NCBI RefSeq assembly: GCF_039545095.1
Contig: NZ_BAABRS010000003.1
Span: 372,001-436,000 of the forward strand
DNA length: 64,000 nucleotides
Reading direction: 5' to 3'
Source of the DNA: Fodinibius salicampi
GTDB taxonomy: Bacteria; Bacteroidota; Rhodothermia; Balneolales; Balneolaceae
Part shown: piece after piece, positions 2,805 to 34,302 of the stretch
Numbering within the stretch: position 1 is the first letter of the stretch
Layout: every line of letters starts with the position of its first letter
The notes under the pieces: model-generated
What the model was told of the DNA's origin: nothing
Database searches by the model: none
The model's input: only the letters and a program-made list of their open reading frames with translations
Translations under genes and position numbers: made by a program

Positions 2805-5717
2805 TTATAAGGATGTGGAAAGTTTTATTTGTTTGTTCCCGGGGATGTCGGGTGTGATCGATTCCAGGTAGGCGGAGCCCTGTGCTCGTTTGTTCTCTAC
2901 AAAGGGGCGGATCTGGAACAGCCATAGCTTGTTATCCTTAAAGCCGAGCTCCACGTCATAGGGCCCTTCCGATTCAATACCCGGTGTATTAGGCATAATC
3001 TTCTTGATCGAGTCCGAAAAGGCCCGGATATCCCGGATATTCTGCTCGTTCAATATGGGCTGTTCAAAGGTAGCCGCCTGCCGGGCCGTGCCTCCGGTCA
3101 ACGGTAACCGGTTGTAATACGGCTCCCGCGCAGGTGACAACAGCACAGCCTCTCCGGATGACTTAAGCAGGTAAGACTCGGCAACCTGCCCGTCAACAGC
3201 GCCTCCTGCACCCCGACTGAAAGCCAGGGTGATCTCATCATTATTTCCGGTCCCGATGCCCTTCGTGATCAGAACACCTGAATAATCTACATCCACGCTG
3301 GGTATGATGAGCAGGGAGGGATACACATTTTCCGGGTTGAGCAGGTACTGTTGCCTCCATTTGTAACTTCGTTCCGTGTATGGAGAGGCCCATACATCCT
3401 TAATCCCCTGGATAATTTTTTGCTTGTCCACGGCATTGAATACGGTAAGATTGAGTCCTGCTCCAGTAAATTCTTTCAGGTCTTCCATGTTGGTATCACT
3501 CCGGATGAAAACGGGCAGCTCTCCCATCGGTTGCCCCAGGATTGACTGGAATTTCTCCTCCAGCTCTTTCCGAAAGTGCGGCAGTAGCTCTATCTTTTTG
3601 ATAGCCTCCCGCAGCACTTCAAGCTGATTCAATTGGTATTTTTCTATCTCTGGCGCCGGTTCTCCCCGGCTACGCATCTGCTCAGCTGTGGCATATGTAT
3701 TATTAAGGAATTGCCAGTAACTAACATTTCGACCAGGCATCTCTTGCTCCAAATGTTGGCGGAATATCCCGAATGGAACAACGAGGCCTTCCACCACCTT
3801 GTCAGGGAACATCTGTTTCAATTGACCGAGGTTAGCCGCCTTGGGTCCCGATAGTTTGCCGGAATCTCTTGCATTAATATCGCGCAGATTCAAGATAGAG
3901 GTCTGGTCGAGCCGAATACTGTCAATTGGCACCCGGATGCGCTCTTCGTTTCTGGCTGTTATAGTAAACAGCGCCCGTTCTTCTTCCGTCATTTTTTCTG
4001 CTGGTTTCATTACTACTGTGCCCCGGTTGGAAACCGCATAGAACACCATCTTCCCGGCATGTGATTTAAGTTCCTCCAGGTTTGTGTTGGAGATCACCGC
4101 ATTGGGGATGCCCAGGTTGCGGGCCAGCAGCTGAACATGAGAAACAAGGTTGCCCTCAGAGACCGTGGCGATCCCTGCAACAGGCTTCATATCCGCTGGA
4201 GGCCGTTCAAACAGATAGATTTTGTCTGGGGCAACTTCTAAATCATCCGGATTCCCCTCAACCACTACTAGTTCTCCAAATGCGAAACCGGGATTAAGCC
4301 CCCGTATATGTCCTTGGTTGGCTATACCCATCATGCTGTTGTTCAGCCCGGTTTGCTGGGCGATAAAATCTCCGAGCCGGCCCACGCTCTCTCCAAGCGG
4401 CAGCAGTACGGACGAACGGATACGGTCATCAATAAAGCCGGTTGCCAGTGGCTCAAAGCCGCTGAACAGTGAAACAACTTCATTATAGGTAGCCTTTACA
4501 GTTCCCGTACCCCATTCCACCTGACTTCTTAACGTCTGCAGGTAGTTACTCAGGTTATTCACGGTAATAGTCTCGGCTGCCGGCGGTGCTACATGATCCG
4601 AGACCTGCCGCCATTCCCACAGCTCTATGTACCCGGCAGCGGCCGCCGTCCGGCCCAGATAGTACGTTTTGTGTAGCAAGTTTTCCAAATTTTTGGGCTG
4701 CCAGCTGGTGGCTTCTTTATAGACTAGTTCCTCCAGTTTGTTTGAAAGATCAAGCAGGGCAATACGGGCACTTACTTTTTTTTCTTCAAGTAGTCCCTCC
4801 CGAATTTCAAACGCCATTGAGGACGCTGTAGTAATTCTCGGTCTTGGACTCGTAAGTTGTTCAAGCTTATCGATCTGTGATGACAGTGAAGCTTTTAACT
4901 GCGAGGGAGACAGCAAAGCCACTTCTTTCCGCAGCAGGTTGACATCCACCGGCTGGAAAAATTCCCGCATCGTAGAGATCAATTCATCAAATTGTGCTTT
5001 GAGCTTTGCAGACAGTTTGTCCGCGTGTTTTTGTTTAAAAGAAATTACATCCTGGATATCTGACGACTCTGGCTGCCCGTGAATTTTTACACGCAAATCC
5101 ATGAACGCTGGATACTGGTCGGAAATAACCTGCGACTGACTGCGCATCTGCTGTGCTACGTTACTGTCTCCCTTGTGCGGGAGGTCCTTGAGCGCCTGGC
5201 GAATCAGAAAATAATGCTGTTGGATCCTTTCGTCATCTGAGAGCAACCATGTAAAAAACTCACGTCCCCATGCCTGTTCATCCTCAGCCTGTATAGCTCC
5301 GCGATAGTACTGTGCTTTCCGGAGAATCCATCCGTTGTCGATACTGCGCAGATACTTCTCCAACTGGTATTGCTTGAGCCGGGAATGGTTGTGACCGGAA
5401 TCCCAAAACGATTGATGGTCGGTGGTCGCTAATATTTGTCCTAAAAAAATGTGATTTGATTTTTGAAGAGCAACCACTTCATCTTTATACCGGGCACGCT
5501 GCTTACCGCCCCGCTCGGGGCACCGCTCTTTCGGTGGAACAACTGATCCATCCGGGCAAAACCATCTAAGGTCCTTATAGGGACCTCGCACATCCTGTTT
5601 ATAGGCTTCAATTCGCTCCTGGATGGACCCATTCTCAACTTTTTGAGCATGGAGCTGACTAGACAAGAAAAAAACCAGGAAAAACAGTAATGCTCTTTTT
5701 AGCGTGATTGTCATCAT
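2805..5717 (-). CDS. Exported PEP/pyruvate-binding, PEP-synthase-like protein
   Basis: 970 residues starting with a clear signal peptide (KRALLFFLVFFLSSQLHAQ). The first ~450 residues are mostly helical and unassigned. A phosphohistidine swivel domain of the PEP-utilising family lies around residues 475-560; the motif GNLVSHVQLLARNLGIP contains the expected swivel His527. From about residue 620 there is a PPDK_N/ATP-grasp-type domain (GPKAANLGQLKQMFP, then FIRSDTNMEDLKEFTGAGL, and C-terminal GPYDVELGFKDNKLWLFQIR). The classic C-terminal PEP-binding barrel is absent, and the swivel precedes the ATP-grasp domain, the reverse of PpsA. In the cytoplasm such proteins move phosphate from ATP through a His. 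Here the protein appears to be exported, where ATP is not expected, so the reaction is unknown. It is the first gene of a pair with the serine hydrolase. Confidence 0.78.
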   Translation of the reverse strand: MMTITLKRALLFFLVFFLSSQLHAQKVENGSIQERIEAYKQDVRGPYKDLRWFCPDGSVVPPKERCPERGGKQRARYKDEVVALQKSNHIFLGQILATTDHQSFWDSGHNHSRLKQYQLEKYLRSIDNGWILRKAQYYRGAIQAEDEQAWGREFFTWLLSDDERIQQHYFLIRQALKDLPHKGDSNVAQQMRSQSQVISDQYPAFMDLRVKIHGQPESSDIQDVISFKQKHADKLSAKLKAQFDELISTMREFFQPVDVNLLRKEVALLSPSQLKASLSSQIDKLEQLTSPRPRITTASSMAFEIREGLLEEKKVSARIALLDLSNKLEELVYKEATSWQPKNLENLLHKTYYLGRTAAAAGYIELWEWRQVSDHVAPPAAETITVNNLSNYLQTLRSQVEWGTGTVKATYNEVVSLFSGFEPLATGFIDDRIRSSVLLPLGESVGRLGDFIAQQTGLNNSMMGIANQGHIRGLNPGFAFGELVVVEGNPDDLEVAPDKIYLFERPPADMKPVAGIATVSEGNLVSHVQLLARNLGIPNAVISNTNLEELKSHAGKMVFYAVSNRGTVVMKPAEKMTEEERALFTITARNEERIRVPIDSIRLDQTSILNLRDINARDSGKLSGPKAANLGQLKQMFPDKVVEGLVVPFGIFRQHLEQEMPGRNVSYWQFLNNTYATAEQMRSRGEPAPEIEKYQLNQLEVLREAIKKIELLPHFRKELEEKFQSILGQPMGELPVFIRSDTNMEDLKEFTGAGLNLTVFNAVDKQKIIQGIKDVWASPYTERSYKWRQQYLLNPENVYPSLLIIPSVDVDYSGVLITKGIGTGNNDEITLAFSRGAGGAVDGQVAESYLLKSSGEAVLLSPAREPYYNRLPLTGGTARQAATFEQPILNEQNIRDIRAFSDSIKKIMPNTPGIESEGPYDVELGFKDNKLWLFQIRPFVENKRAQGSAYLESITPDIPGNKQIKLSTSL

Positions 5718-23675: not shown

Positions 23676-25049
23676 TCACAAAGAAAACCGGATTATGCTA
23701 TACACGGCCGCCAATAAAATAGCTATGATGCTCAACCAAAAGGCAATGTCATATAGCCTTCCGGGTTTAAGGCGAGCATCGAGCTGTACATATCTGAAAT
23801 GAACCGCCGCAAAAATCACAATTAAAAGGAGTACAGAAGTGAAGAATCCGCCGATGATCACCATCAACACAGGAAGTTGCACAAAGAGAAACATGATGGC
23901 CCAAAGCATCGGGAAAACCCAGGCAAAGATTGCAATTGCTTTTCTCCGCTGTTCAATGTCGTGAAAATCCAGGAAGCCAAGTTTTCCGAATGCATCTGAA
24001 AAAATTCTCGTCCAGCTTGCAAGGGCAGTAAAAAGTGTTGAAAACAAAACCACGATCGCACAGATCAAAAAGACATTCCTTGCCCCGGGACCCAGCGTTT
24101 CAGTGTACATCCCGGAAAGCGTTTCGATCATCTGGAATCCTTCGGGAATGCGATCCTGTACATGCAGTACGGAGGCTCCTAAAATATAAAAAGCCGCCGT
24201 TACAAGTGTATACACGATCATCGACAAAAACGCATCCCAATACATCACTTTAATCCATCCTTTTGCACGATTTGTCCACGCTTCTGTTTTTTCTACGGGT
24301 CCGGTATATGAGGCATACCCTTTTTCGATACACCAGTAATGGTAGTACATAATTTCATCCCCGCCCACTCCCGTAAGACCAAACGCCCCGATGGCTACCC
24401 CCACCATCGCTGTGGGGAGATTAAGCTCAAGTCCGTACTGAATATCTGTCCAGGAGATGGCAAATTCGGTGAATTGCATAAAATACACAGACAAAAAGGT
24501 GAGAACTGTGAAGAAGGCAATCATCACAAGAGAAAAACGCTCTACAAAAATATAATAGCCCCTGAAAACAAGCAGCGAAGCCAGAATAGCCGTTATAAAT
24601 GTCCAGAGAGTGACATTTACCGATGGAAAAAAGATATTCATTGTGATAGCTACGCCCCCAACAATCCCACCGACCTGTAACAGTTTGAAAAGCTGAATGA
24701 AAAGCCATGTCCAGATCGTCCAGTTAATATCTCTGAATTTCCATCCCGGCAGCTTGTTAAAGGCGCTCATTATCGTCTCGCCGTTACTGATCGCATGCTT
24801 CCCAAACTCCAGTTGAAGGGCTACTTTAACCAGGCAGCTTAGGATAATCACCCAGAATGTTACAAAACCAGCTCTTGCCCCAAGTGTGGTGGTTGCAATT
24901 AACTCGCCGGAGCCGACAATGGCCGCTGAAAGTACAAACCCTGGCCCCAGGTACCGAACGGTTCCCAATAAAGTCTTCGGAGGCTCTTTGATATCCTCCC
25001 TTTTCAGCACATAGGGATCTTTTGGACGACCTTTTGTTAGCTCACTCAT
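23676..25049 (-). CDS. Divergent Nramp-family transporter
   Basis: 457 residues with about 11 membrane helices. The overall Nramp layout is clear (YLGPGFVLSAAIVGSGELIA at TM1, GAFGLTGVGGDEIMYYHYW at TM6), but both metal-site motifs are altered. In TM1 the canonical DPGN is G46-S-G-E49. In TM6 the canonical MPH is D231-E-I. Canonical Nramp proteins bind Mn2+/Fe2+ with the TM1 Asp and Asn and the TM6 Met. Loss of all three suggests a different ion, possibly Mg2+ as in Nramp-related magnesium transporters, or an organic substrate. It is downstream of and co-directional with the esterase-like gene, 139 bp away, and converges on the TonB receptor gene. Confidence 0.85.
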   Translation of the reverse strand: MSELTKGRPKDPYVLKREDIKEPPKTLLGTVRYLGPGFVLSAAIVGSGELIATTTLGARAGFVTFWVIILSCLVKVALQLEFGKHAISNGETIMSAFNKLPGWKFRDINWTIWTWLFIQLFKLLQVGGIVGGVAITMNIFFPSVNVTLWTFITAILASLLVFRGYYIFVERFSLVMIAFFTVLTFLSVYFMQFTEFAISWTDIQYGLELNLPTAMVGVAIGAFGLTGVGGDEIMYYHYWCIEKGYASYTGPVEKTEAWTNRAKGWIKVMYWDAFLSMIVYTLVTAAFYILGASVLHVQDRIPEGFQMIETLSGMYTETLGPGARNVFLICAIVVLFSTLFTALASWTRIFSDAFGKLGFLDFHDIEQRRKAIAIFAWVFPMLWAIMFLFVQLPVLMVIIGGFFTSVLLLIVIFAAVHFRYVQLDARLKPGRLYDIAFWLSIIAILLAAVYSIIRFSL

Positions 25050-25188
25050 ATAGGATTCAATTGGATTATTGTTGCACTTTGGGTGGAACCTGAGGGTGAT
25101 TAATTACAGCCTACACATAGGCAGACTTCGAATTCCATACACATAGCAGCTTTTTTACCGACAAGACAAGTCGTGCCGTTATTTTAAT

Positions 25189-27468
25189 TTATTTCTCAAT
25201 CCAATACTCAAATAGTTCCTCTATATTGTTCATCTGAGTTGTTATGGTCAGCTGGTCGCGGGCCTTTGCCTCTTCATATGCTGTCTTTATTACCTCTAAA
25301 TCTTTTCCGGCCGTTTTACTATTTATATCGACCATTTCTCCGGCTCCATTGGTCATTCCAGCTATCAGGAGCTTTCCCGGCGCCAGTGCAGCGGCAAGAT
25401 CCGTCAAATCATAGGCTTTAAGCGCGCCGGCCACTGCACTCTTATGTAAACCGGGATCATAAAAGCGATTCATTATCAGAGATCGATAGGAAGAATAGGG
25501 TTCCAGCAGGGCTACTCTGCTGATGGACGGCTCAAATGCAGCGGCATGCAGCAGAACCGGCGACATGTCCTGGCGGGCCAGTCCATAGATTTCTTCCGAC
25601 TTATGTTCTCTTTTCAACAGCCGGGTGAGCCGGACTACATCTCCCGCCCGTATTCCGGTAATGCTTCGGCCGATGAGTACGGAATTGGTCCATACATCGA
25701 AAGAGGTGGAATTAAAGTCCTTGACCTGGGTCGTATAATTAGCCAAATCGCCGGGACCCGTTTCTCCGGTTCCAATTAAATCCGGGGCCAGTACGGTGTA
25801 TCCATTCCGGACAAACCATCCCATCTCGCCACCTTCCACAGCTTCCGCAGACTTGCCTTCAGGATGTAAATATAGCAGCGCCTTGCCATTGGGCCGATCC
25901 GGAATCATAAGCAGGTAAGGAATCGGATAATCTCCTTCGCCTTTCACAAAGTACTTCTCAATTGCATAGCCCTCCCGCTGGATGCGTCCGGTAAAGACCG
26001 GTTTCTCAATTTCTTTGGGCTCCTGGTAGCCGGACAGCTCTTTAGCAGATTTCAATACTTCAGGAAGATGCTCCTCAAGATTTTCTCTGGACGAGCGTAA
26101 CTTGTCAATGTTCTGTTTCGCCTCCCTGCGATTTAAACTAAAGACGGTTTCTCCTTCTCCGTCAAATTCTGTAGCCAGCTGACCCGTACGGGTTACCTGA
26201 ATCTCTTCATCACTCAGGATATTCACCTCCTGGTCGGTGTTGTTTCCGGGATTATCCAGATGTTGCTGAAAAAAAGCATACATAGCCTTTCGGTTTTGTG
26301 GAGTGGATGTATGTCCTCCGCTATCTTCCACTGCCGTAAAAAGATCTGGCTGATCATATAATTCATAGATTTCCGATACTTCTGAAGCCGTCTCCCTCGC
26401 TCCGTGAATACTAAAAAAGTCCTCGGTGGTATTGATCATCAAGGCAGGCTTGGGAGCCCGAACCTCAAGCAAGTCAGCATGGTCAATGCCCGCAGCAATG
26501 CCATGATAAAAGTTTTGCTCGGCATCCTGCGGACCGATGGACTGCAGCAGGCGCCTGAAGTTCGTTATAAAAGCTCCCGGCGCAGCGGCATGTATGCGCT
26601 GGTCAAAAGCCGCTATATAAGCTGCCTGGGTTCCCCCGCCTGAGCGGCCGGTTATCCCAATCCTATCGGAGTCCACCTCATCCCTGGAATGCAAATAATC
26701 CACTGCCCGGATGCCATCCCAAATCATATATCGCGCCAGGGAGCTGCCATTGATAAAAGCCTGTGCCCCGGTATAGGAATGCTCTCTTGTTGCACTGCCG
26801 ACGATTGAGCTTCCGCTTTCAGGATCGTAATACTCCACCCGCTCCCCCTGTCCGACCGGATCGATAGCAAATACCACAAACCCTTTCTTCACTAAATTCA
26901 AGATGGTATCCTGATAGGTGGAGCTTCTGTATGCATCCTGGGTATGTCCGCTCAGGTAGAGTATGGCCGGGGCTTGCTCCTGCAGATCCCTGGGAATAAA
27001 AAGGGAAGAAGTGACATGAAATCCCGGCTGTGACTCATAAATGATATGCTCCACTTTATAATTATCCTTCTCAATCGTCCGCATCACCTCTGCATTTAAA
27101 GGCGTTTTCTCAGGAAAGGGTCCCACAATTCTTGTGAGCGTTTGGCGTACTTCCTCCTGTCTTTTCTGCCAATCGGACAACGTATTTAACTCGGATATGG
27201 TGGCAGATCGTTTGTCCAACAGATCATACGCCTGGCCGGCAAGGTGATGGTACAGCGCGTTGTGTGCATCGCTGAAGTGAATCCAATTGCTATTGCTGCT
27301 TTCCCCCTGTATGACTTTCAGATCATCCTGTGCCCTGGCACTATTGCTTGTAAACAAAAAAACCAGAGACAAACAACAGAGAAGCTTAAGAATTCCGGAA
27401 TATCGTTCTGACCATCCCATCTGCTGCCGTCGGCGTCTAGGCTTTGCCGGTAATTGTATTTGCATCAT
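25189..27468 (-). CDS. Exported two-domain alpha/beta hydrolase (acetylxylan-esterase-like)
   Basis: 759 residues. The start at 27468 gives an Arg-rich head (KPRRRRQQ); the ATG at 27420 (MGWSERYSG) is an alternative, and both lead into a signal segment ending NSARAQ. The N-terminal hydrolase domain (~70-400) has the nucleophile elbow GRSGG with Ser276, a likely acid in MINTTEDFF and His in SGGHTS. The sequence resembles acetylxylan esterase/dienelactone-hydrolase families. A second hydrolase-like domain (~470-759) has the early strands (KALLYLHPEG, YTVLAPDLIGTGETG), but its nucleophile elbow reads YGLARQDMSP, with no GxSxG, so it is probably non-catalytic. Removal of acetyl or other ester groups from plant polysaccharide would fit the GH115 gene nearby. 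Confidence 0.8.
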   Translation of the reverse strand: MMQIQLPAKPRRRRQQMGWSERYSGILKLLCCLSLVFLFTSNSARAQDDLKVIQGESSNSNWIHFSDAHNALYHHLAGQAYDLLDKRSATISELNTLSDWQKRQEEVRQTLTRIVGPFPEKTPLNAEVMRTIEKDNYKVEHIIYESQPGFHVTSSLFIPRDLQEQAPAILYLSGHTQDAYRSSTYQDTILNLVKKGFVVFAIDPVGQGERVEYYDPESGSSIVGSATREHSYTGAQAFINGSSLARYMIWDGIRAVDYLHSRDEVDSDRIGITGRSGGGTQAAYIAAFDQRIHAAAPGAFITNFRRLLQSIGPQDAEQNFYHGIAAGIDHADLLEVRAPKPALMINTTEDFFSIHGARETASEVSEIYELYDQPDLFTAVEDSGGHTSTPQNRKAMYAFFQQHLDNPGNNTDQEVNILSDEEIQVTRTGQLATEFDGEGETVFSLNRREAKQNIDKLRSSRENLEEHLPEVLKSAKELSGYQEPKEIEKPVFTGRIQREGYAIEKYFVKGEGDYPIPYLLMIPDRPNGKALLYLHPEGKSAEAVEGGEMGWFVRNGYTVLAPDLIGTGETGPGDLANYTTQVKDFNSTSFDVWTNSVLIGRSITGIRAGDVVRLTRLLKREHKSEEIYGLARQDMSPVLLHAAAFEPSISRVALLEPYSSYRSLIMNRFYDPGLHKSAVAGALKAYDLTDLAAALAPGKLLIAGMTNGAGEMVDINSKTAGKDLEVIKTAYEEAKARDQLTITTQMNNIEELFEYWIEK

Positions 27469-27928
27469 ATTTTTGCTTTAAAATTTGGGTATCCCTTTTA
27501 TAATATTCTTTTCCAATATGCGAAAGAGATATTAAAAATGCATAAAGTTTGGTTAAGTGGTTTGCCGCCTAAATTCTTTTCGCCAGGGGCATGGTCCTTT
27601 TTTATATCCGATAAAAATCACAAAATAATTATTTAGAAAAATCGGCCTTATAGTAATCTTAACGTCTATTTTGGGGCCAATATCTGAGAAGAAATATACC
27701 GGACGGAACATTTTTTTGTAACAAATCGCTCTGTTTTTACTCTTGTATAGTAGGGGCAGGGGTATAAATCATTACGAGAAACCTTATTAAAAAAACGTAA
27801 ATCAAGAACCTGGACGTAGCTTCGGTTGCGTCTATCCTAAACAAATAAAACCCGACGCGGATCCGGGCTGCCTGTCTCAAAAGCCCGCCATTTCTGCTGC
27901 CGGCAACCCTAAATAAAATCATAAAACT
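27469..27928. other. Divergent intergenic region, esterase-like and HU-like genes
   Basis: 460 bp between divergent genes. It should contain both promoters. The last ~100 bp before the HU-like ATG is GC-richer than its surroundings (CCCGACGCGGATCCGGG and nearby). No ribosome binding site precedes the ATG at 27929. No ORF that I trust. Confidence 0.5.
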
Positions 27929-28633
27929 ATGAGTCTTGAATATCACCTGGTGCCTACCCATATCACAGATAACCCGAATGATTACCGGGCGGTAAGCCGA
28001 AACAGCAAAAGCTATACGCTTGAGGATGTATTTAAAAATATGACCCGCGAGGGATCCACCATTACCACCGCCGAGGCCATGGCAGTGTTCGAGGAGATTA
28101 CACGGGGGATCACAGAATTCCTGAAAGAAGGATATACGGTTATTACGCCCTTAGTTAACCTGTCATCAAGTGTAACAGGGGTTTTTAAAGGAAAAGATGA
28201 GCTGTTCGATCCAAACCAGCACGGTGTTCGGTTAAATATCAATTCCGGGATACGCCTTCGAGACATTCCGGCTTCCATCCGTCCCACCCTGGTACAGAGA
28301 GTAAAAGCAGCCCCTTCTATCAACTACCTTTTTGATAATATCTCAGATACACGAAACGAGATCATTACCCCCGGTGGCGGCGCCCGTATCAAAGGGGATC
28401 TGCTGAAATATGACGACGAAGATCCCAAGCAGGGCATCTTTTTTATCAATACCGGGGATCAAAGCGAGCACCGGGTGGAGCGGTCCCCACTTCGCAATAT
28501 GCCGAAAGAACTTATCTTTATGCTTCCGGATCTGCCCGAAGGGGAATACCGACTGGAAGTGCGCAGTATTCCATACGGCGCCTCAACCCTGCGGTCAGGC
28601 CGCCTTGCCGATCCAGTAACCGTAGCACCGTAA
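27929..28633 (+). CDS. HU-like DNA-binding protein with DUF4469 domain
   Basis: 234 residues, no signal peptide. Residues ~1-125 form an HU/IHF-like DNA-binding module of the Bacteroidota type (YHLVPTHITDNPNDYRAV, then EGSTITTAEAMAVFEEITRG and FLKEGYTVITPLVNLSSSVT). Residues ~135-234 are the Ig-like DUF4469 domain (TPGGGARIKGDLLKYDDEDP, then MLPDLPEGEYRLEVRSIPYG). Proteins of this architecture are presumed nucleoid or DNA-bending proteins; their targets are unknown. The gene is a single-gene unit, and a 22-bp tandem repeat array begins 55 bp after its stop. Confidence 0.88.
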   Translation: MSLEYHLVPTHITDNPNDYRAVSRNSKSYTLEDVFKNMTREGSTITTAEAMAVFEEITRGITEFLKEGYTVITPLVNLSSSVTGVFKGKDELFDPNQHGVRLNINSGIRLRDIPASIRPTLVQRVKAAPSINYLFDNISDTRNEIITPGGGARIKGDLLKYDDEDPKQGIFFINTGDQSEHRVERSPLRNMPKELIFMLPDLPEGEYRLEVRSIPYGASTLRSGRLADPVTVAP

Positions 28634-28688
28634 CGACTCCCCGATGGTCGGAACCGTACCTTATCATGATAATGGCCCTGTCATCCGG

Positions 28689-28842
28689 ACTTAGTACCAC
28701 TAACACTGGGTGCCAGTGTCGTTAACACCAGGAGTTAGTGATACTAATACTGGGAGTCATTGGCGCTAACATTACCAGTCAGTGTCACTGACACCGAGGC
28801 TCAGCGTCACTGGCACCGGGACTCAGTATTACAACTACTACC
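28689..28842. repeat. Seven-unit degenerate 22-bp tandem repeat array
   Basis: Seven head-to-tail units of exactly 22 bp (28689, 28711, 28733, 28755, 28777, 28799, 28821; total 154 bp, no indel). Consensus: first half AGTCAGTGTCA, second half CTAACACYGGG. Positions 5 and 17 (both A) are invariant, and most differences are transitions. The middle has a near-dyad, AGTG-T-CACT. Twenty-two bp is about two helical turns, so the units would present the same DNA face. It is not a CRISPR (no spacers) and not coding (stops occur in the frames I read). It lies just downstream of the HU/DUF4469 gene. Confidence 0.85.
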
Positions 28843-29040
28843 GGGAACGGGATAAGTTTAGTAGGCAAGAAATACAGAACAAGCCATTATATCAATAAGG
28901 AAGTACGGGGACGAAACATTTCATAGTACCGGTTGGGTTTAATAGCTCAACCGGTATTTAACAGCATCCCAACCATTAACAAATAAGATAATCTCTATTC
29001 AGGTCCGGAACAGGTGGGTCGGGAGTGGGAAGATCGCATA
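28843..29040. other. Intergenic region after the repeat array
   Basis: This stretch lies between the array and a very small candidate ORF. Its only clear structure is the perfect hairpin at 28927-28956. The whole 28634-29281 interval lacks a normal-size gene. Confidence 0.5.
28927..28956 (+). terminator. Hairpin, possible terminator downstream of HU-like gene and array
   Basis: Perfect 9-bp stem, TACCGGTTG (28927-28935) and CAACCGGTA (28948-28956), loop of 12, followed by TTTA only. It could end a transcript covering the HU-like gene plus the array, but the T tract is short. Confidence 0.4.
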
Positions 29041-29175
29041 ATGTGCATGTATCAGCACTATATCGACAGCTGTAACGGGGGGCAGATATTCCTGGGTCAA
29101 GCCTTGATCACCAGCATTATCATCGGCTTATGGATATACAGCAATCACCGCGCCTCTTTGCAGCAAGCCAACTAA
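29041..29175 (+). CDS. Very small hydrophobic ORF, unrecognised
   Basis: 44 residues from the ATG at 29041 (an in-frame GTG at 29014 would add nine). The central part, IFLGQALITSIIIGLWIYS, would make a single membrane helix; the tail is polar (NHRASLQQAN). No ribosome binding site stands out. I do not recognise a family. It may be a genuine small membrane protein or a chance ORF or gene remnant in this otherwise gene-free stretch. Confidence 0.3.
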   Translation: MCMYQHYIDSCNGGQIFLGQALITSIIIGLWIYSNHRASLQQAN

Positions 29176-29212
29176 GATTAAAAGCCGGTATCCGCATATC
29201 CAGTGAAAAATA

Positions 29213-29275
29213 GAGCGGTTTTACCTGCTATTGTGCCAACAACTATTTTGCTATCGTAAACAGATAAAACCGCTC
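29213..29275. terminator. Long hairpin downstream of the 36-residue ORF
   Basis: Perfect 11-bp arms GAGCGGTTTTA (29213-29223) and TAAAACCGCTC (29265-29275), extended by CTG/CAG after one mismatch, with a ~40-base loop. It starts 6 bp beyond the stop of the minus-strand 36-residue gene and may be its terminator or a structured RNA. Confidence 0.4.
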
Positions 29276-29281
29276 CGGATA

Positions 29282-29392
29282 TTACTGTTTATTATCTTTC
29301 TTTTTTTTGTTCCATTGATCAAGGACAATAGGAATAATGAAGAATAGAGACACTACAATAGTGATAATTAAAGTAGTTAAACTAATATCCAT
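29282..29392 (-). CDS. 36-residue single-pass membrane protein
   Basis: ATG at 29390-29392, TAA at 29282-29284. The protein has a short polar start (MDIS), one hydrophobic helix (LTTLIITIVVSLFFIIPIVL) and a Lys-rich cytoplasmic tail (DQWNKKKKDNKQ). This is the shape of real small membrane proteins: positive-inside tail, one clean helix, proper termination and a hairpin just downstream. It is too short to assign. It may be co-expressed with the 126-residue exported protein upstream on the same strand, although a strong hairpin (29421-29438) lies between them. Confidence 0.55.
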   Translation of the reverse strand: MDISLTTLIITIVVSLFFIIPIVLDQWNKKKKDNKQ

Positions 29393-29420
29393 CTTGCAAT
29401 AATTTTATTTAAGGTGTATT

Positions 29421-29438
29421 CCATCCCCGTGGGGATGG
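29421..29438. terminator. GC-rich hairpin between two small minus-strand genes
   Basis: Perfect stem CCATCCCC (29421-29428) and GGGGATGG (29431-29438) with a 2-base loop; the plus-strand side is followed by GGTTATTT. It could stop transcription from the 126-residue gene or act as an RNA processing stem. Confidence 0.5.
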
Positions 29439-29494
29439 GGTTATTTAAGAGAATGGATTACGACGTGATAGTCGCATATATCTAAGCAAGATGG

Positions 29495-29875
29495 TTACAA
29501 GAAAAAATGAAAGGGAAAAAGAAGGGTTCTGATTGTTGGATGAATGGCTATAGAAGCAGCTCTTAGCAGAAGGATAGCTGCATGTCGCTGTACATACGCT
29601 TCGACTACAGTATTCTCATAAGTGTCTTCCTGGGAATTATAAATCGTGTTACAGCAGGAAAGTGAGTTAAATATATAGACTTCTCCTTCCGCACTATTAT
29701 GAGCTACAAGCGATCTTGCCTTTCCATAAGGATGGGTAGATGAAGCACTCTTGGTTTTTGTCGCTTCAATTGTAGCAACATCATGACTGCCGTACGCCAA
29801 TGCAGTTTCGCCCAGCGTATGCCAGGAAAACACGACTGCAAGAAATACAAGGAAGATATTTATATATCTCTTCAT
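29495..29875 (-). CDS. Small exported protein, unrecognised
   Basis: 126 residues with a signal peptide (MKRYINIFLVFLAVVFSWHT). The mature part is short and mixed, with one Cys-Cys pair (NSLSCCNTIYNS) and a hydrophobic C-terminal end (HAAILLLRAASIAIHPTIRT, then LLFPFHFFL). I do not recognise a family. Its outline, a small exported protein with a hydrophobic tail, is loosely like the first gene of the metal efflux operon, but it lacks the His-rich part. It is 76 bp downstream of nothing obvious on its strand: the next minus-strand gene (GH115) ends upstream of it at 29952, so both could share a transcript. Confidence 0.6.
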   Translation of the reverse strand: MKRYINIFLVFLAVVFSWHTLGETALAYGSHDVATIEATKTKSASSTHPYGKARSLVAHNSAEGEVYIFNSLSCCNTIYNSQEDTYENTVVEAYVQRHAAILLLRAASIAIHPTIRTLLFPFHFFL

Positions 29876-29951
29876 TTAGGCGGTAAAATACAAAAACAAG
29901 GTAACATTATTTACGAAAAACAGAGAATTCTAAGTATATGATGTCAGTCCA

Positions 29952-32900
29952 TTACTTTTTCTCACGACTTATCTTTGTGGAGGGCGGTCCCCCATACGAT
30001 GGCTCCAGGCCTCCAAAGTCAATCATGATTTGATCAACATTGACGGAAGGATCTGTTCCCCACAGCTTAAAGCGGTACGTACCGGGTTCAAGGTCCAGTT
30101 GCCCCGTTCCGACCATACGGCTTTCCAGCACATTATCTATCCATGGTTGCCCGCCCGGGTTTCCCATCTCAAAGGTAATCCACTGTGGCTCTCCGTCGCC
30201 AATGCTTATCGCACATCGCATCGGTTGGGATTCTTTCAATGGAAAGGCCGGTACCCCTTCGACGATTACATTGCCCGGCCCGCCCTCAGTAACCACCATA
30301 TCATATTCAAGCACGGGAGAAACCTCCCGGACCTGAGACAGATCCTCAATGTACCATCCCTTCATCGGCTCCAGCAACATGGCCGAACCGCTTCGTCCTA
30401 ATCCGGTTACGGAACGCCAAGAAGCCGTATTCGCCGCCTTTTTTTGATGGTACTGACTGGCCGGCATGGAAATCACGCCGTTGGCCTCGATGAAGGCGTT
30501 TGATGGCACCTGCAGATTTTGGTTGAACACCGGGATGGCTACCCGGTAGCGTTGCTCCCCGCTCGTAATGTCGATGTTGCCACTAATATCCTGTCCAGCT
30601 GGCGCTTCCTCATAATTGACTGTTACCCAGATGCGTTCGGAGCCGCCGCTGAGTAATCCCTTGTCATCACTCAGCTGAATCCAGGGAGCACTGCTTTCGG
30701 CCGACCACTCCTCGGCTTCCTGCCCGCGGCTAAAAATGTCGATAAAATGACGCTGCTGGGTATAGCGATTAAATGTCGGGAGACTATTTTCTTCTGTGAA
30801 ACTGGGCGACAGTTGACGCGATTCTTGGACGAACTCTACTCCGTACAGCTTTCCTCCACTTTCATGGGGATGAATTGTCAATGTGTTCCGGCCAGGCTGC
30901 AATACAATATCGTCAACTTCCAACTGTTGGATGCAACCAACAGAGCCTTCAACTTTTATAGGTGCATGATCATTGACGGTTACCCACCAGGAGTCGCTGC
31001 CTTCATCAGGGTGATCGACCGACAAGTTGAGTCTGTGGGTACCACCAGCCTCCTTAACATTAAATTCAAACACAGCTTTCATGGGATTATTCACCTCATA
31101 GGGAATCACATCATAGTATTCAGGGCCAGATACAGTTCTGCCGGTCCCGTCTTCCGGCCACCTCAGAAACATCCCGGACGAATCTTTTCCGGTCGTAAGC
31201 TCCCCGGATATATTGGCTTCTATAGCGCTCATTGTTATGGTTGATTCCCTGGTGGTGATATCGGGCAGATTACCTTTTAACGGTTGCAGCGGATCCTGCT
31301 GGCCTTCAATAGCCACGCCTACACCCCGAACGTCTTCCGTTTCAATGCGGGTGGTGATCGGTTCAAAAAATACCGACGATCCTTTTTCATACCCGGGACT
31401 ATAATCAACCATATGCTCCCATTTACCGCCAGCCACCTCTTGGTTATAATGTCGGGTCAGCTGTTTGATCTCCTCAAAAGCCGCAAATGCCGAATCGCTC
31501 AACTGATTTGCAACCGCCCGACCCTGCTTGGCGTATTCCCTGCTTTTATACCCGTACAGCCACTTCTCATTCATGGCCGTGGCCCCGGCAATGGGATAAT
31601 AGACCAGCTCAAAGTAAGTATCCGCGGCTTCGGCGGGAATCTCTTCCGAAAGTTTCTTTGCCCGCGTTTGCAAATCCTGGTAGCTTTGTATTCGCTGCTG
31701 GACCTCATCATTATAATTCCATAGGCTGTAGAAAGGATCCTGAACGGGCGGCCACCCGGCCCATTGCGATTTATTGAATCCCATAAATTCCGGTTTACGC
31801 TCGGTAGCAAGCCGGTAGTATTCCCACATCAGCTCGGAGATCTGGTTCGCATACTTTTCAGAAATGTCGCGTGAGGCGACGGTCGAAAAATAGTCTTGGA
31901 TGTTCTCCGGCGCCCAGGAGTCTATATCCCAGGCCAGAACCATGAAAAATTCGGTCTCCCATTCGCGGCGTTTTATGTCCCCCACGTTGGCAATCCATAT
32001 TTCACTCATGTTCTGTAGTTGGGCGCGCCTCATCTCCCGCCAAACCAGGGCAGGTGTGGTCGGGGAAAGCCAGATATAGGGATGGGGCGCCCCAAGATAC
32101 GACAAGTGGTAATACACCCCAGCACCACCGGGGCGTTGCTGCTCAGCCTGGTCAGAAAACCGTCGAATATACCCGTGATTGTCGTCGGGCCAGGTGATGG
32201 TGATATCTTCGGGCACGTCCATCCCGGCCTCGTATATATCGAGCACTTCCTTATAGGGAGTAAACGACTGGGGGACTTCGGACACATCTTTATTAATATA
32301 TTTGCTTAGCAGTTCCCGCTGATCGGAAATCACCTGCTCGAGGGCATTGACTGCCTCATCCATAGAGTCTACACCTTCCATACCACTGTCATGAACACCG
32401 CGCATGCCAACCGTGTAGATAGCATCCATCCCCTGGCTCTGTTTGACCCGCTGCTCCCAGTAATCGTATACCGAAGAAGCATTGGTTTGATAGTTGAAAT
32501 CCCCCATCGCCTCGTGATTCCATTCGCCCACGTTGTTGCGAAGCATCGGCTCGGCGTGGGAAGTGCCCACCACTATTTCCCATTTCTCAGCAATCTCTGC
32601 GTTGCCGGGCACCTGGAAGAAGGGTTCGGTATTCGGATGCATCGCCGGCCAAACCATGTTGGCTTTCAGGCGCAGCAACAGTTCAAAGATTTTGGCGTAG
32701 GTTTTGGGACCCATATTACGGACGGAGGGCTCAAATGTCTTGGAGGCCCAGGGCTCCAGGCCCCAACCCTCATCATTGAGAAAAATGCCCCGGTATTTAA
32801 CCGAGGGAGAAGTTGAAAAGGTGCCTTTGTTGCTTACGGTCAGGGAATTATTCTTTTTAACCGGAACGTCTGCCCACCAGTACCAGGGCGAAACGCCTAT

Positions 32901-33323
32901 TTCTTTTGACAAATCAAAGACCCCGTAGGCAGTACCCCGGGGATCGCTGCCAGCTATGAACATCGCCTGATTGATGGAAGCTGTAGGGTCGGCTTTAAAT
33001 ACTCGTCCATAGGTTTCCCATTGGCCCGAAAGGCGAGAAGTATCGAGATGGCTGCTAATCAGATTGGAGCTGATATCGCCAAGAATAATCACATTCCCCT
33101 GTACATCCTCAAAGCTGGTATAAATCCCAGGACGCTGGCCGGTTACGGCTTCAATATCTCGGGCCAACAGGTGTGCTGCAATAGAGTCCAAAGCTGAACT
33201 TTCAATATCATAGACGATGGAGGTGGCACCATCCTGGTCTGCAATGGTAAATTGGGCAAAGGCGTTCTGACAGCCTAATACGGTCAGCATCAAAAGTACC
33301 AGTGAAATTATTTTATAATTCAT
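29952..33323 (-). CDS. GH115 family xylan alpha-glucuronidase
   Basis: 1123 residues, exported; the N-terminus (SLVLLMLTVLGCQNAFAQ) could be read as a lipobox at Cys18 or as a type I signal ending AFAQ. The catalytic GH115 region covers ~30-640 with hallmark stretches LRLKANMVWPAMHPNTEPFF, MDEAVNALEQVISDQRELLS, WLSPTTPALVWREMRRAQL and ENIQDYFSTVASRDISEKYA. A C-terminal beta-rich GH115_C part follows (~700-1120). GH115 enzymes remove 4-O-methyl-glucuronic acid from glucuronoxylan. The nearby acetylxylan-esterase-like gene would fit the same substrate, but no xylanase or SusC/SusD pair is in the window, so this is an isolated accessory enzyme here. Confidence 0.9.
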   Translation of the reverse strand: MNYKIISLVLLMLTVLGCQNAFAQFTIADQDGATSIVYDIESSALDSIAAHLLARDIEAVTGQRPGIYTSFEDVQGNVIILGDISSNLISSHLDTSRLSGQWETYGRVFKADPTASINQAMFIAGSDPRGTAYGVFDLSKEIGVSPWYWWADVPVKKNNSLTVSNKGTFSTSPSVKYRGIFLNDEGWGLEPWASKTFEPSVRNMGPKTYAKIFELLLRLKANMVWPAMHPNTEPFFQVPGNAEIAEKWEIVVGTSHAEPMLRNNVGEWNHEAMGDFNYQTNASSVYDYWEQRVKQSQGMDAIYTVGMRGVHDSGMEGVDSMDEAVNALEQVISDQRELLSKYINKDVSEVPQSFTPYKEVLDIYEAGMDVPEDITITWPDDNHGYIRRFSDQAEQQRPGGAGVYYHLSYLGAPHPYIWLSPTTPALVWREMRRAQLQNMSEIWIANVGDIKRREWETEFFMVLAWDIDSWAPENIQDYFSTVASRDISEKYANQISELMWEYYRLATERKPEFMGFNKSQWAGWPPVQDPFYSLWNYNDEVQQRIQSYQDLQTRAKKLSEEIPAEAADTYFELVYYPIAGATAMNEKWLYGYKSREYAKQGRAVANQLSDSAFAAFEEIKQLTRHYNQEVAGGKWEHMVDYSPGYEKGSSVFFEPITTRIETEDVRGVGVAIEGQQDPLQPLKGNLPDITTRESTITMSAIEANISGELTTGKDSSGMFLRWPEDGTGRTVSGPEYYDVIPYEVNNPMKAVFEFNVKEAGGTHRLNLSVDHPDEGSDSWWVTVNDHAPIKVEGSVGCIQQLEVDDIVLQPGRNTLTIHPHESGGKLYGVEFVQESRQLSPSFTEENSLPTFNRYTQQRHFIDIFSRGQEAEEWSAESSAPWIQLSDDKGLLSGGSERIWVTVNYEEAPAGQDISGNIDITSGEQRYRVAIPVFNQNLQVPSNAFIEANGVISMPASQYHQKKAANTASWRSVTGLGRSGSAMLLEPMKGWYIEDLSQVREVSPVLEYDMVVTEGGPGNVIVEGVPAFPLKESQPMRCAISIGDGEPQWITFEMGNPGGQPWIDNVLESRMVGTGQLDLEPGTYRFKLWGTDPSVNVDQIMIDFGGLEPSYGGPPSTKISREKK

Positions 33324-33655
33324 AGAGGATTACATTAGAGAATCTACTACTAAAATTATGTATTGATTTTACAGTATACCGGTTGTTACAACGGATGTAA
33401 TACAGGGATCAAAAGTTATTCTTTAAATTACATAATACAATATACTGTCATATCTCCGAAGTATACCCTCAAACAATCTGGACTCAATTGGAAGAAGCGT
33501 CAAACTGTAGACGAGAAGACTGAAGGGGAAATGCCTGATGGTTGGTAGATCTGCTTGGTTTTAAAGTAGCGGTTTATCAAACAACATACACAATCCCTCA
33601 AATCAACAATAAAACGGAAGCTATGAGGTATCCCGTAGTACTATCGTTTAAATCA
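33324..33655. other. Intergenic region upstream of the GH115 gene
   Basis: 332 bp containing the presumed GH115 promoter on the minus strand. A short plus-strand reading frame exists, but it has no recognisable content. No repeat or terminator was found. Confidence 0.45.
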
Positions 33656-33937
33656 TTACCTCAACACATCCTGAAGTGAGGGATCCCGTTCAATAACCGA
33701 TTTCGCATAGGGACAGAGCGGAATCACTTTCAAATTATTATTACGGGCATAGGCTATCGCAGTTTTTACCAGCTTTTTTCCAACATTCTTTCCTCTTAAC
33801 TCATCGGATACCTCGGTATGATCGATAATTATCCCCGTATTTCCCATTTTGGAATAGGTTATTTCCGCTTTAACCTTTCCATCTTTTTCCAGAAAAAACT
33901 TTCCTTTGCTTTCACCGTACTCATGCTGGATATCCAT
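33656..33937 (-). CDS. Small GNAT-like N-acetyltransferase (YjdJ/NATD1 type)
   Basis: 93 residues, the usual size for the short Gcn5-related group (N-acetyltransf_CG). The acetyl-CoA-binding region reads HTEVSDELRGKNVGKKLVKT followed by AIAYARNNNLKVIPLCPYAK, which holds the RGxNVGxxL loop and the typical 'IPLCPYAKSVI' segment with the conserved Cys-Pro. Members are single-domain; substrates are unknown. It stands alone. Confidence 0.88.
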   Translation of the reverse strand: MDIQHEYGESKGKFFLEKDGKVKAEITYSKMGNTGIIIDHTEVSDELRGKNVGKKLVKTAIAYARNNNLKVIPLCPYAKSVIERDPSLQDVLR

Positions 33938-34302
33938 AATGTCTACCTGCCAAAAAGTTTAATAATTAAGTGAAGTTGAGAAGTACCGGGTGATTGCTTT
34001 CCATACATTATACTGTCCTTTACCTTTTTACTTCCTGGCTAGCCTCCTGGAAGGAATCGGTATAAATATAATATTTTTTCTCCAGTTCATATACTCGGTG
34101 TACACAGACTTTGATTGATGCTACAAGCTTTTGACTATCGGTTTATTAATTAATGCGCATCGGTGATGAAAACCATAGGCATCAACCAGATGGTTGATGC
34201 CTATAACTTCGGGCAGAGAACGTTATGGGTTGCGAAAGAATAGCTTCAATATGACTATACTCATCTTTCGATCAAATCCTGATCCTGTATTTTACCAACA
34301 GA
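33938..34302. other. Intergenic region between two minus-strand genes
   Basis: 365 bp between the GNAT gene and the oxidoreductase gene. It contains the strong hairpin at 34175-34204 and otherwise no ORF that I would call. Confidence 0.5.
34175..34204 (-). terminator. Terminator-like hairpin after the oxidoreductase gene
   Basis: Perfect 13-bp stem, ATAGGCATCAACC (34175-34187) and GGTTGATGCCTAT (34192-34204), with loop AGAT. On the minus strand it is followed by GGTTTTCAT. It lies ~100 bp beyond the oxidoreductase stop. Confidence 0.6.

Follow-up and report, generated by a model that had tools for sequence, protein, structure and literature searches.

An array of dyads behind an HU-DUF4469 gene

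Downstream of a gene for an HU-like protein, in the 64,000-nucleotide stretch of Fodinibius salicampi DNA analysed here (the window), seven repeats of 22 bp have kept their length while their sequences diverged. Such an array could be a DNA platform for the protein encoded upstream or a structured RNA tail of its mRNA, the two roles suggested in a sequence-only reading of the locus. To decide between these and further possibilities, we compared the locus with related genes, their proteins and their flanking DNA. The features considered are as follows.

27929..28633, plus strand: HU-DUF4469 gene, 234 aa (Pfam, AF2 model, match to 4FMR)
27929..28300, plus strand: HU-like domain, residues 1-124 (Pfam residues 3-112)
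28316..28630, plus strand: DUF4469 domain (residues 130-234), Ig-like and similar to IPT/TIG folds (Pfam, AF2 model, fold match)
28559..28606, plus strand: C-terminal hairpin of DUF4469, codons 211-226, proposed sequence-reading loop (sliding-window covariation peak)
28689..28842, no strand assigned: seven tandem dyad units of 22 bp each, proposed as the platform bound by the upstream protein (period scan, shuffle z, dyad test)
28927..28956, plus strand: possible weak terminator 3' of the array, inverted repeat TACCGGTTG...CAACCGGTA then TTT (read from the sequence; not called by the scan)

The array consists of seven contiguous units without indels and has the consensus AGTCAGTGTCACTAACACYGGG, which individual units match at 13-19 of 22 positions; the mean pairwise identity of the units is 0.58. 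Its borders are right, because the flanking 22-mers match the consensus at only 4-11 positions. As had been noticed from the letters alone, columns 5 and 17 never change (A in 7/7 units) and most substitutions are transitions (26 of the 39 minor letters, hand count). Among all seven-copy stretches of the window, the period-22 score reaches its maximum, 0.61, at 28689-28842 (window-wide mean 0.255, SD 0.025), making this the best period-22 stretch present. TRF detected only the best 2.2 copies, and a four-copy scan of the 500 bp after the stop codon against dinucleotide shuffles gave z 10.8 at period 22. The near-dyad AGTG-T-CACT recognized earlier extends to TTAGTG-T-CACTAA, is significant (column-shuffle p 0.017) and has an odd centre. 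The unit length is approximately two helical turns, as had been proposed, but the corollary that all units face the same side of straight B-DNA does not hold, since 22 bp is ~2.1 turns at 10.5 bp per turn and the units drift by ~34 degrees each. No DNA similarity to plasmids was found, and the GH115 gene neighbouring the locus is absent in congeners.

The identification of the upstream product as an HU-like protein with a DUF4469 domain was likewise confirmed: the protein matches HU-DNA_bdg PF14848 (E 5e-24, 85.1 bits against a curated cut-off of 30) and DUF4469 PF14734 (E 6e-19, 68.3 bits against 22.6). It also matches BVU_2165 (hmmsearch 1e-26), whose structure, 4FMR, is the one that exists for the HU-DUF4469/HU-HIG family (PF14848, PF14734, PF18291). 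HU proteins are dimers that bend DNA. The AF2 model of the window protein has a pLDDT of 88.8; the two domains are placed relative to each other with low joint confidence (pTM 0.52), and for this reason any geometry of the protein on DNA is only a guess. The genome carries eight PF14848 genes.

Arrays accompany most HU-DUF4469 genes

We surveyed 77 HU-DUF4469 genes from Balneolota, Bacteroidota, TM6 and Verrucomicrobiota, calling an array at z of at least 5 within 500 bp after the stop codon. A scan of genome contigs had contributed 52 loci, which belong to Fodinibius/Aliifodinibius, Marinilabiliales-type Bacteroidota, Cytophagales, one TM6 bacterium and one Opitutales bacterium; 6 of the 77 loci came from species sampled already, and 64 non-duplicate arrays were left for anatomy counts. 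A functional array had been predicted to persist behind related genes with a conserved period and divergent sequence, and this is the pattern found: a tandem array lies 3' of 69 of the 77 genes, with period 22 in 22 cases, 23 in 46 and 25 in 1. In the 500 bp upstream of the same genes, only 3 of 76 regions score, at periods 14, 16 and 34. The 3' regions of other genes in these loci yielded 0/95 at period 22 or 23 and 3/95 at any period, and behind the ordinary HU genes (PF00216) L097 and L098 of the window's genome, the best z values (3.8 and 3.2, at period 21) stayed below the threshold of 5. Neutral tandem repeats, there by chance, could be entertained for the window on account of its degenerate units; however, a period and position constant across several phyla, with none in control regions, contradict this explanation and render it vanishingly improbable.

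Arrays contain about four to seven units (4-6 in 60 of the 64) and start a median 80 bp after the stop codon. Dyad symmetry exceeds that of column shuffles in 41 of the 64 arrays, and dyad centres are predominantly odd in period-22 arrays (17:2) and even in period-23 arrays (31:13); we infer that the contact between neighbouring units is fixed and that the extra base is absorbed at the dyad centre. The units are short DNA dyads of gene-specific sequence, and dyads such as TATCCCTATAGGGATA have no loop, which fits the expectation for DNA sites of a dimer. Paralogs within the window's genome are followed by different arrays of like period, for example TAACACGTCGTGTTA per 22 bp, CCCATTACTATGGG per 23 and GTTATTAGTATAAC per 23. 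Because the sequence of these palindromes changes together with one loop of the protein (see below), the DNA target of each protein seems to be written beside its own gene.

The family is present in 6 of the 12 genomes of the genus and in few genomes of the remaining phylum, and the same pattern recurs in further relatives (Parabacteroides and other Bacteroidota). Three loci in which the scan detected no array (L027, L036 and L037) have degenerate arrays visible by eye, and in Treponema saccharophilum a period-23 array is visible 3' of the gene at z 4.4-4.5, below the threshold. Some relatives have no detectable array, among them L033, L084, L138, L140, L148 and phage L123, an unannotated record with a distant relative; viral contigs yielded none.

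The genes L005, L027 and L029 are orthologous and have the same patatin-like gene downstream, and their arrays differ (CCCATTACTATGGG vs CCTTATAAGG). The array thus appears to change fast at a conserved locus.

The array as a probable DNA element

One rival reading takes the array for the 3' untranslated region of the HU-DUF4469 mRNA, acting as a stem or stability element. The folding check proposed in the sequence-only reading gave a strong fold for the window array (z -3.8), and 49 of the 64 arrays fold well, but tandem dyads must fold as RNA whatever their role. A simple, uncalibrated home-made terminator scan found no clear terminator between gene and array in the window, as an RNA tail would have it; across the 64 loci, however, the same scan placed a terminator-like hairpin after the stop codon and ahead of the array in 37 and only 3' of the array in 13. 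Selected RNA pairing would give more G-U than A-C mismatches in the dyads, and there is no such excess (78 vs 82), with 18 arrays leaning each way and no sense-strand bias. Rfam gave no match above threshold for the array, and orphan arrays exist without any gene (see below). The structured RNA tail is therefore very unlikely.

Somewhat less improbable, although still unlikely, is an operator that the protein would bind to control its own gene or the next one. The arrangement in Parabacteroides L120, where a fimbrillin gene on the same strand follows the HU-DUF4469 gene and the array occupies the gap, would suit this role. Against it, the gene's own array motif reached a rank <0.05 upstream of the gene in only 1 of 63 cases, with no promoter enrichment, and the next gene is oriented either way equally (19:19). 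Taken together, terminators before arrays, random next-gene orientation, the lack of a G-U excess and the lack of promoter motifs favour a DNA binding platform, and the array is best seen, on this comparative evidence, as a DNA element, neither an mRNA tail nor an ordinary operator.

A separate hairpin, CCGCCGGCTGGTCATCAACC...GGCCGGCGG, lies in the leader of Bacteroidota HU-DUF4469 genes (L057, L064, L061, L054, L085 and others) ~105 bp before the start codon. It shows compensatory changes at 3 of 7 pairs, has no Rfam match and is a candidate cis-regulatory RNA.

The C-terminal hairpin of DUF4469 varies with the array

Array similarity correlates with DUF4469 identity when HU is held constant (partial Mantel r 0.23, p 0.0005) and not with HU identity when DUF4469 is held constant (r 0.03, p 0.31); these partial correlations are modest (0.2), and, the sequences being related by descent, the permutation tests leave common descent partly in. 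The HU domain is thus probably not the sequence-reading part. When nine-residue windows were scanned with the rest of the protein held constant, the correlation peaked at residues 211-226 in window-protein numbering (r 0.20, familywise p 0.002; 95% point of the null maximum, 0.148), the best window in the HU domain reaching 0.08. The peak persists after dropping 9 or 15 related proteins. A second, weaker region covers residues 187-196, and, judging from the strand order of the structural model, the two regions are loops or turns that would lie at the same end of the Ig sandwich.

Pairs of genes illustrate the relationship. In one strain of Labilibaculum manganireducens, the HU domains of L068 and L071 are identical, the protein differences are concentrated in the hairpin (VIFKNYKSMRSG vs AAKKNRKNIKAG) and the arrays are unrelated (GTCGTAGTACCACGAC vs GTACAAGTACTTGTCC); DNA identity between the two loci is ~0.93-1.00 and drops to background across hairpin and array. 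Of the natural experiments on the proposed sequence reading, this pair is the clearest. Conversely, where proteins are less than 50% identical elsewhere and have hairpins at least 70% identical, the arrays are similar in 3 of 3 pairs, one of which crosses phyla (L028 from Fodinibius vs L054 from Marinifilum, whose units resemble TATAGTTATAACTATA). Any code relating loop to array does not appear to be simple, because L057 and L096 are near-identical (HU 95%, DUF4469 96%) yet have different arrays.

A universal loop-to-DNA code was also considered. Close families agree (CCCA..TGGG, TGACAT..ATGTCA, TATAGTTATAACTATA), but the agreement does not carry over to held-out loci, L134 and L144 among them, so we propose no such code. 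The raw associations seen for the alignment columns of residues 190 and 195 have few mismatches behind them and were given no weight.

Orphan arrays and duplicated gene-array units

Gene-free arrays of the window's family occur elsewhere in the genome, at C2:121971, C1:1240631, C4:38089 and C1:1597406, and those of the L005 family at C2:216538, C3:137739, C1:1598846, C5:27448 and C1:623406, the latter all intergenic. In 11 congeners there are essentially none, with one weak 28-bp match for the window array and zero for L005. In the orphans L018 and L019, the borders of BLAST homology place its start at window positions 28565-28571, that is, at codons 213-215, the start of the proposed hairpin, from where it runs through the array; both orphans retain the last 50-60 bp of the gene together with the array. 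In one Ancylomarina strain, the paralogs L064 and L096 share a single block extending from 121 bp before the start codon to ~20 bp past the array, in otherwise unrelated surroundings, and Ancylomarina L057 has the same gene block with a different array. These borders suggest that the unit duplicated or exchanged is either gene plus array or hairpin plus array.

One interpretation, which we hold to be possible but doubtful, is that promoter, HU-DUF4469 gene and array form a mobile or selfish cassette that duplicates itself, the array serving as its 3' end or copying signal and the orphans being copies that have decayed or lack autonomy, in loose analogy to REP elements and RAYT transposases. 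The single gene-plus-array block of L064 and L096, the gene ends kept in L018 and L019, and the truncated RAYT-like gene abutting one orphan speak for it. However, the unit contains no transposase or nuclease, and the tight period and the hairpin covariation need a binding explanation anyway, so that the cassette overlaps the binding platform rather than replacing it.

Several further observations concern the surroundings of these arrays. In the Ancylomarina loci L057, L058, L064, L066 and L096, the HU-DUF4469 gene lies between the two copies of an inverted repeat, TTTATTCAGAATC ... GATTCTGAATAAAT; the 5' copy of the repeat is the left border of the duplicated block and the 3' copy lies between the stop codon and the terminator, on the inside of the array. 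RAYT-like (REP-associated) transposase genes are found at L019:4626-5030 and 917-1594, the truncated one next to the orphan array at ~5057-5400. In the window's genome, the orphan arrays L020, L021, L111, L112 and L114 lie in long intergenic islands that have other dispersed repeats in common (for example, L020:3308-3735 vs L021:5230-5670, 86% identity). The orphan array at L112:4009-4300 has many period-23 units, the core of which passes from CCCATATATATGGG via TGTAATA..TATTACA to TGTCCTTACTA..., as though the specificity had moved within a single array.

Proposed mechanism

The binding platform suggested by the sequence-only reading is strongly supported by comparison: position and period are conserved, the sequence is divergent, and it covaries with the protein. 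Given the position, period, dyads, gene-family specificity, hairpin covariation and orphans, the array is probably a platform of several DNA sites, cognate to the protein whose gene lies directly upstream. Binding, dimer stoichiometry, bending and any cellular role are what we infer, in the following form. An HU-fold dimer would present two DUF4469 Ig-like domains, each reading one dyad half-site through its C-terminal hairpin (residues about 211-226). One dimer would occupy each 22-23 bp unit, and 4-7 dimers, with neighbours in contact, would cover the array from end to end, bending or compacting it. Specificity would diversify quickly, each paralog having its own hairpin and its own array; since the hairpin codons adjoin the array at the gene's 3' end, the two can be passed on or exchanged as a pair. 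Further array copies in the genome would serve as additional binding sites or be what is left of duplicated gene-array units. The likeliest role would be local chromosome structuring or the upkeep of a selfish gene-array unit.

More tentatively, these proteins may be a family of fast-diversifying sequence-specific binders: DNA would be read by an Ig-like hairpin carried on an HU dimer, and the codons for this hairpin would make up, together with the array, a single exchangeable module at the 3' end. Orphans of the kind of L018 and L019 might then be satellites or donors that change target and array together.

Comparison with known systems

In the open-licence literature, we found nothing relevant on DUF4469, HU-HIG, repeats and Fodinibius, no paper that names DUF4469 and none with arrays of this kind, although such arrays may have been described elsewhere. 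HU-DUF4469/HU-HIG is a known family to which the window protein belongs, and no source found describes an array next to its genes; a role against mobile elements was reportedly proposed by Burroughs et al. in 2017. For the 3' array that is specific to each gene, and for the way it covaries with an Ig-like hairpin, we could find no described counterpart.

REP/REPIN repeats are similar in being short palindromes that sit at a gene and are also scattered through its genome, and they are tied to a RAYT transposase; in the parts of the two sources available, REPs are not reported as fixed 22-23 bp tandem arrays behind a gene (PMC3116915, PMC3733652). HU-DUF4469 differs further in having no catalytic domain, and among the ORFs of at least 50 aa at 24000-34000 there is no Y1/HuH transposase gene, the array's neighbour being HU-DUF4469.

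Iterons and parS-type partition arrays are tandem sites adjoining the gene of their binding protein, and an iteron period near two helical turns is common. The HU-DUF4469 arrays resemble them in both respects, with the binding protein here a proposed one. Next to the window's gene there is, however, no replication initiator and no ParA/ParB, and the arrays are 3' of the gene rather than origin-linked, with several unlinked gene-array pairs per chromosome, which raises the question of why chromosomes keep several private protein-array pairs.

Proteins that bind DNA through an Ig fold include NF-kB/Rel and EBF. In fold, DUF4469 is similar to the TIG domains of RelB, p65 and EBF1 (Z 8-9), and loops at one end of its sandwich could touch DNA; the Ig domains of sugar enzymes match equally well or better (Z 10-11), and the fold by itself says nothing on function. 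What the arrays offer in addition is a concrete candidate DNA target, readable behind each gene, for nearly every member of this widespread domain of unknown function, and the matched natural pairs (same HU domain, other loop, other array) can be used for working out a recognition code. HU-type proteins are usually seen as weakly specific architectural proteins, and our data suggest a branch with many distinct specificities conferred by an Ig-like loop.
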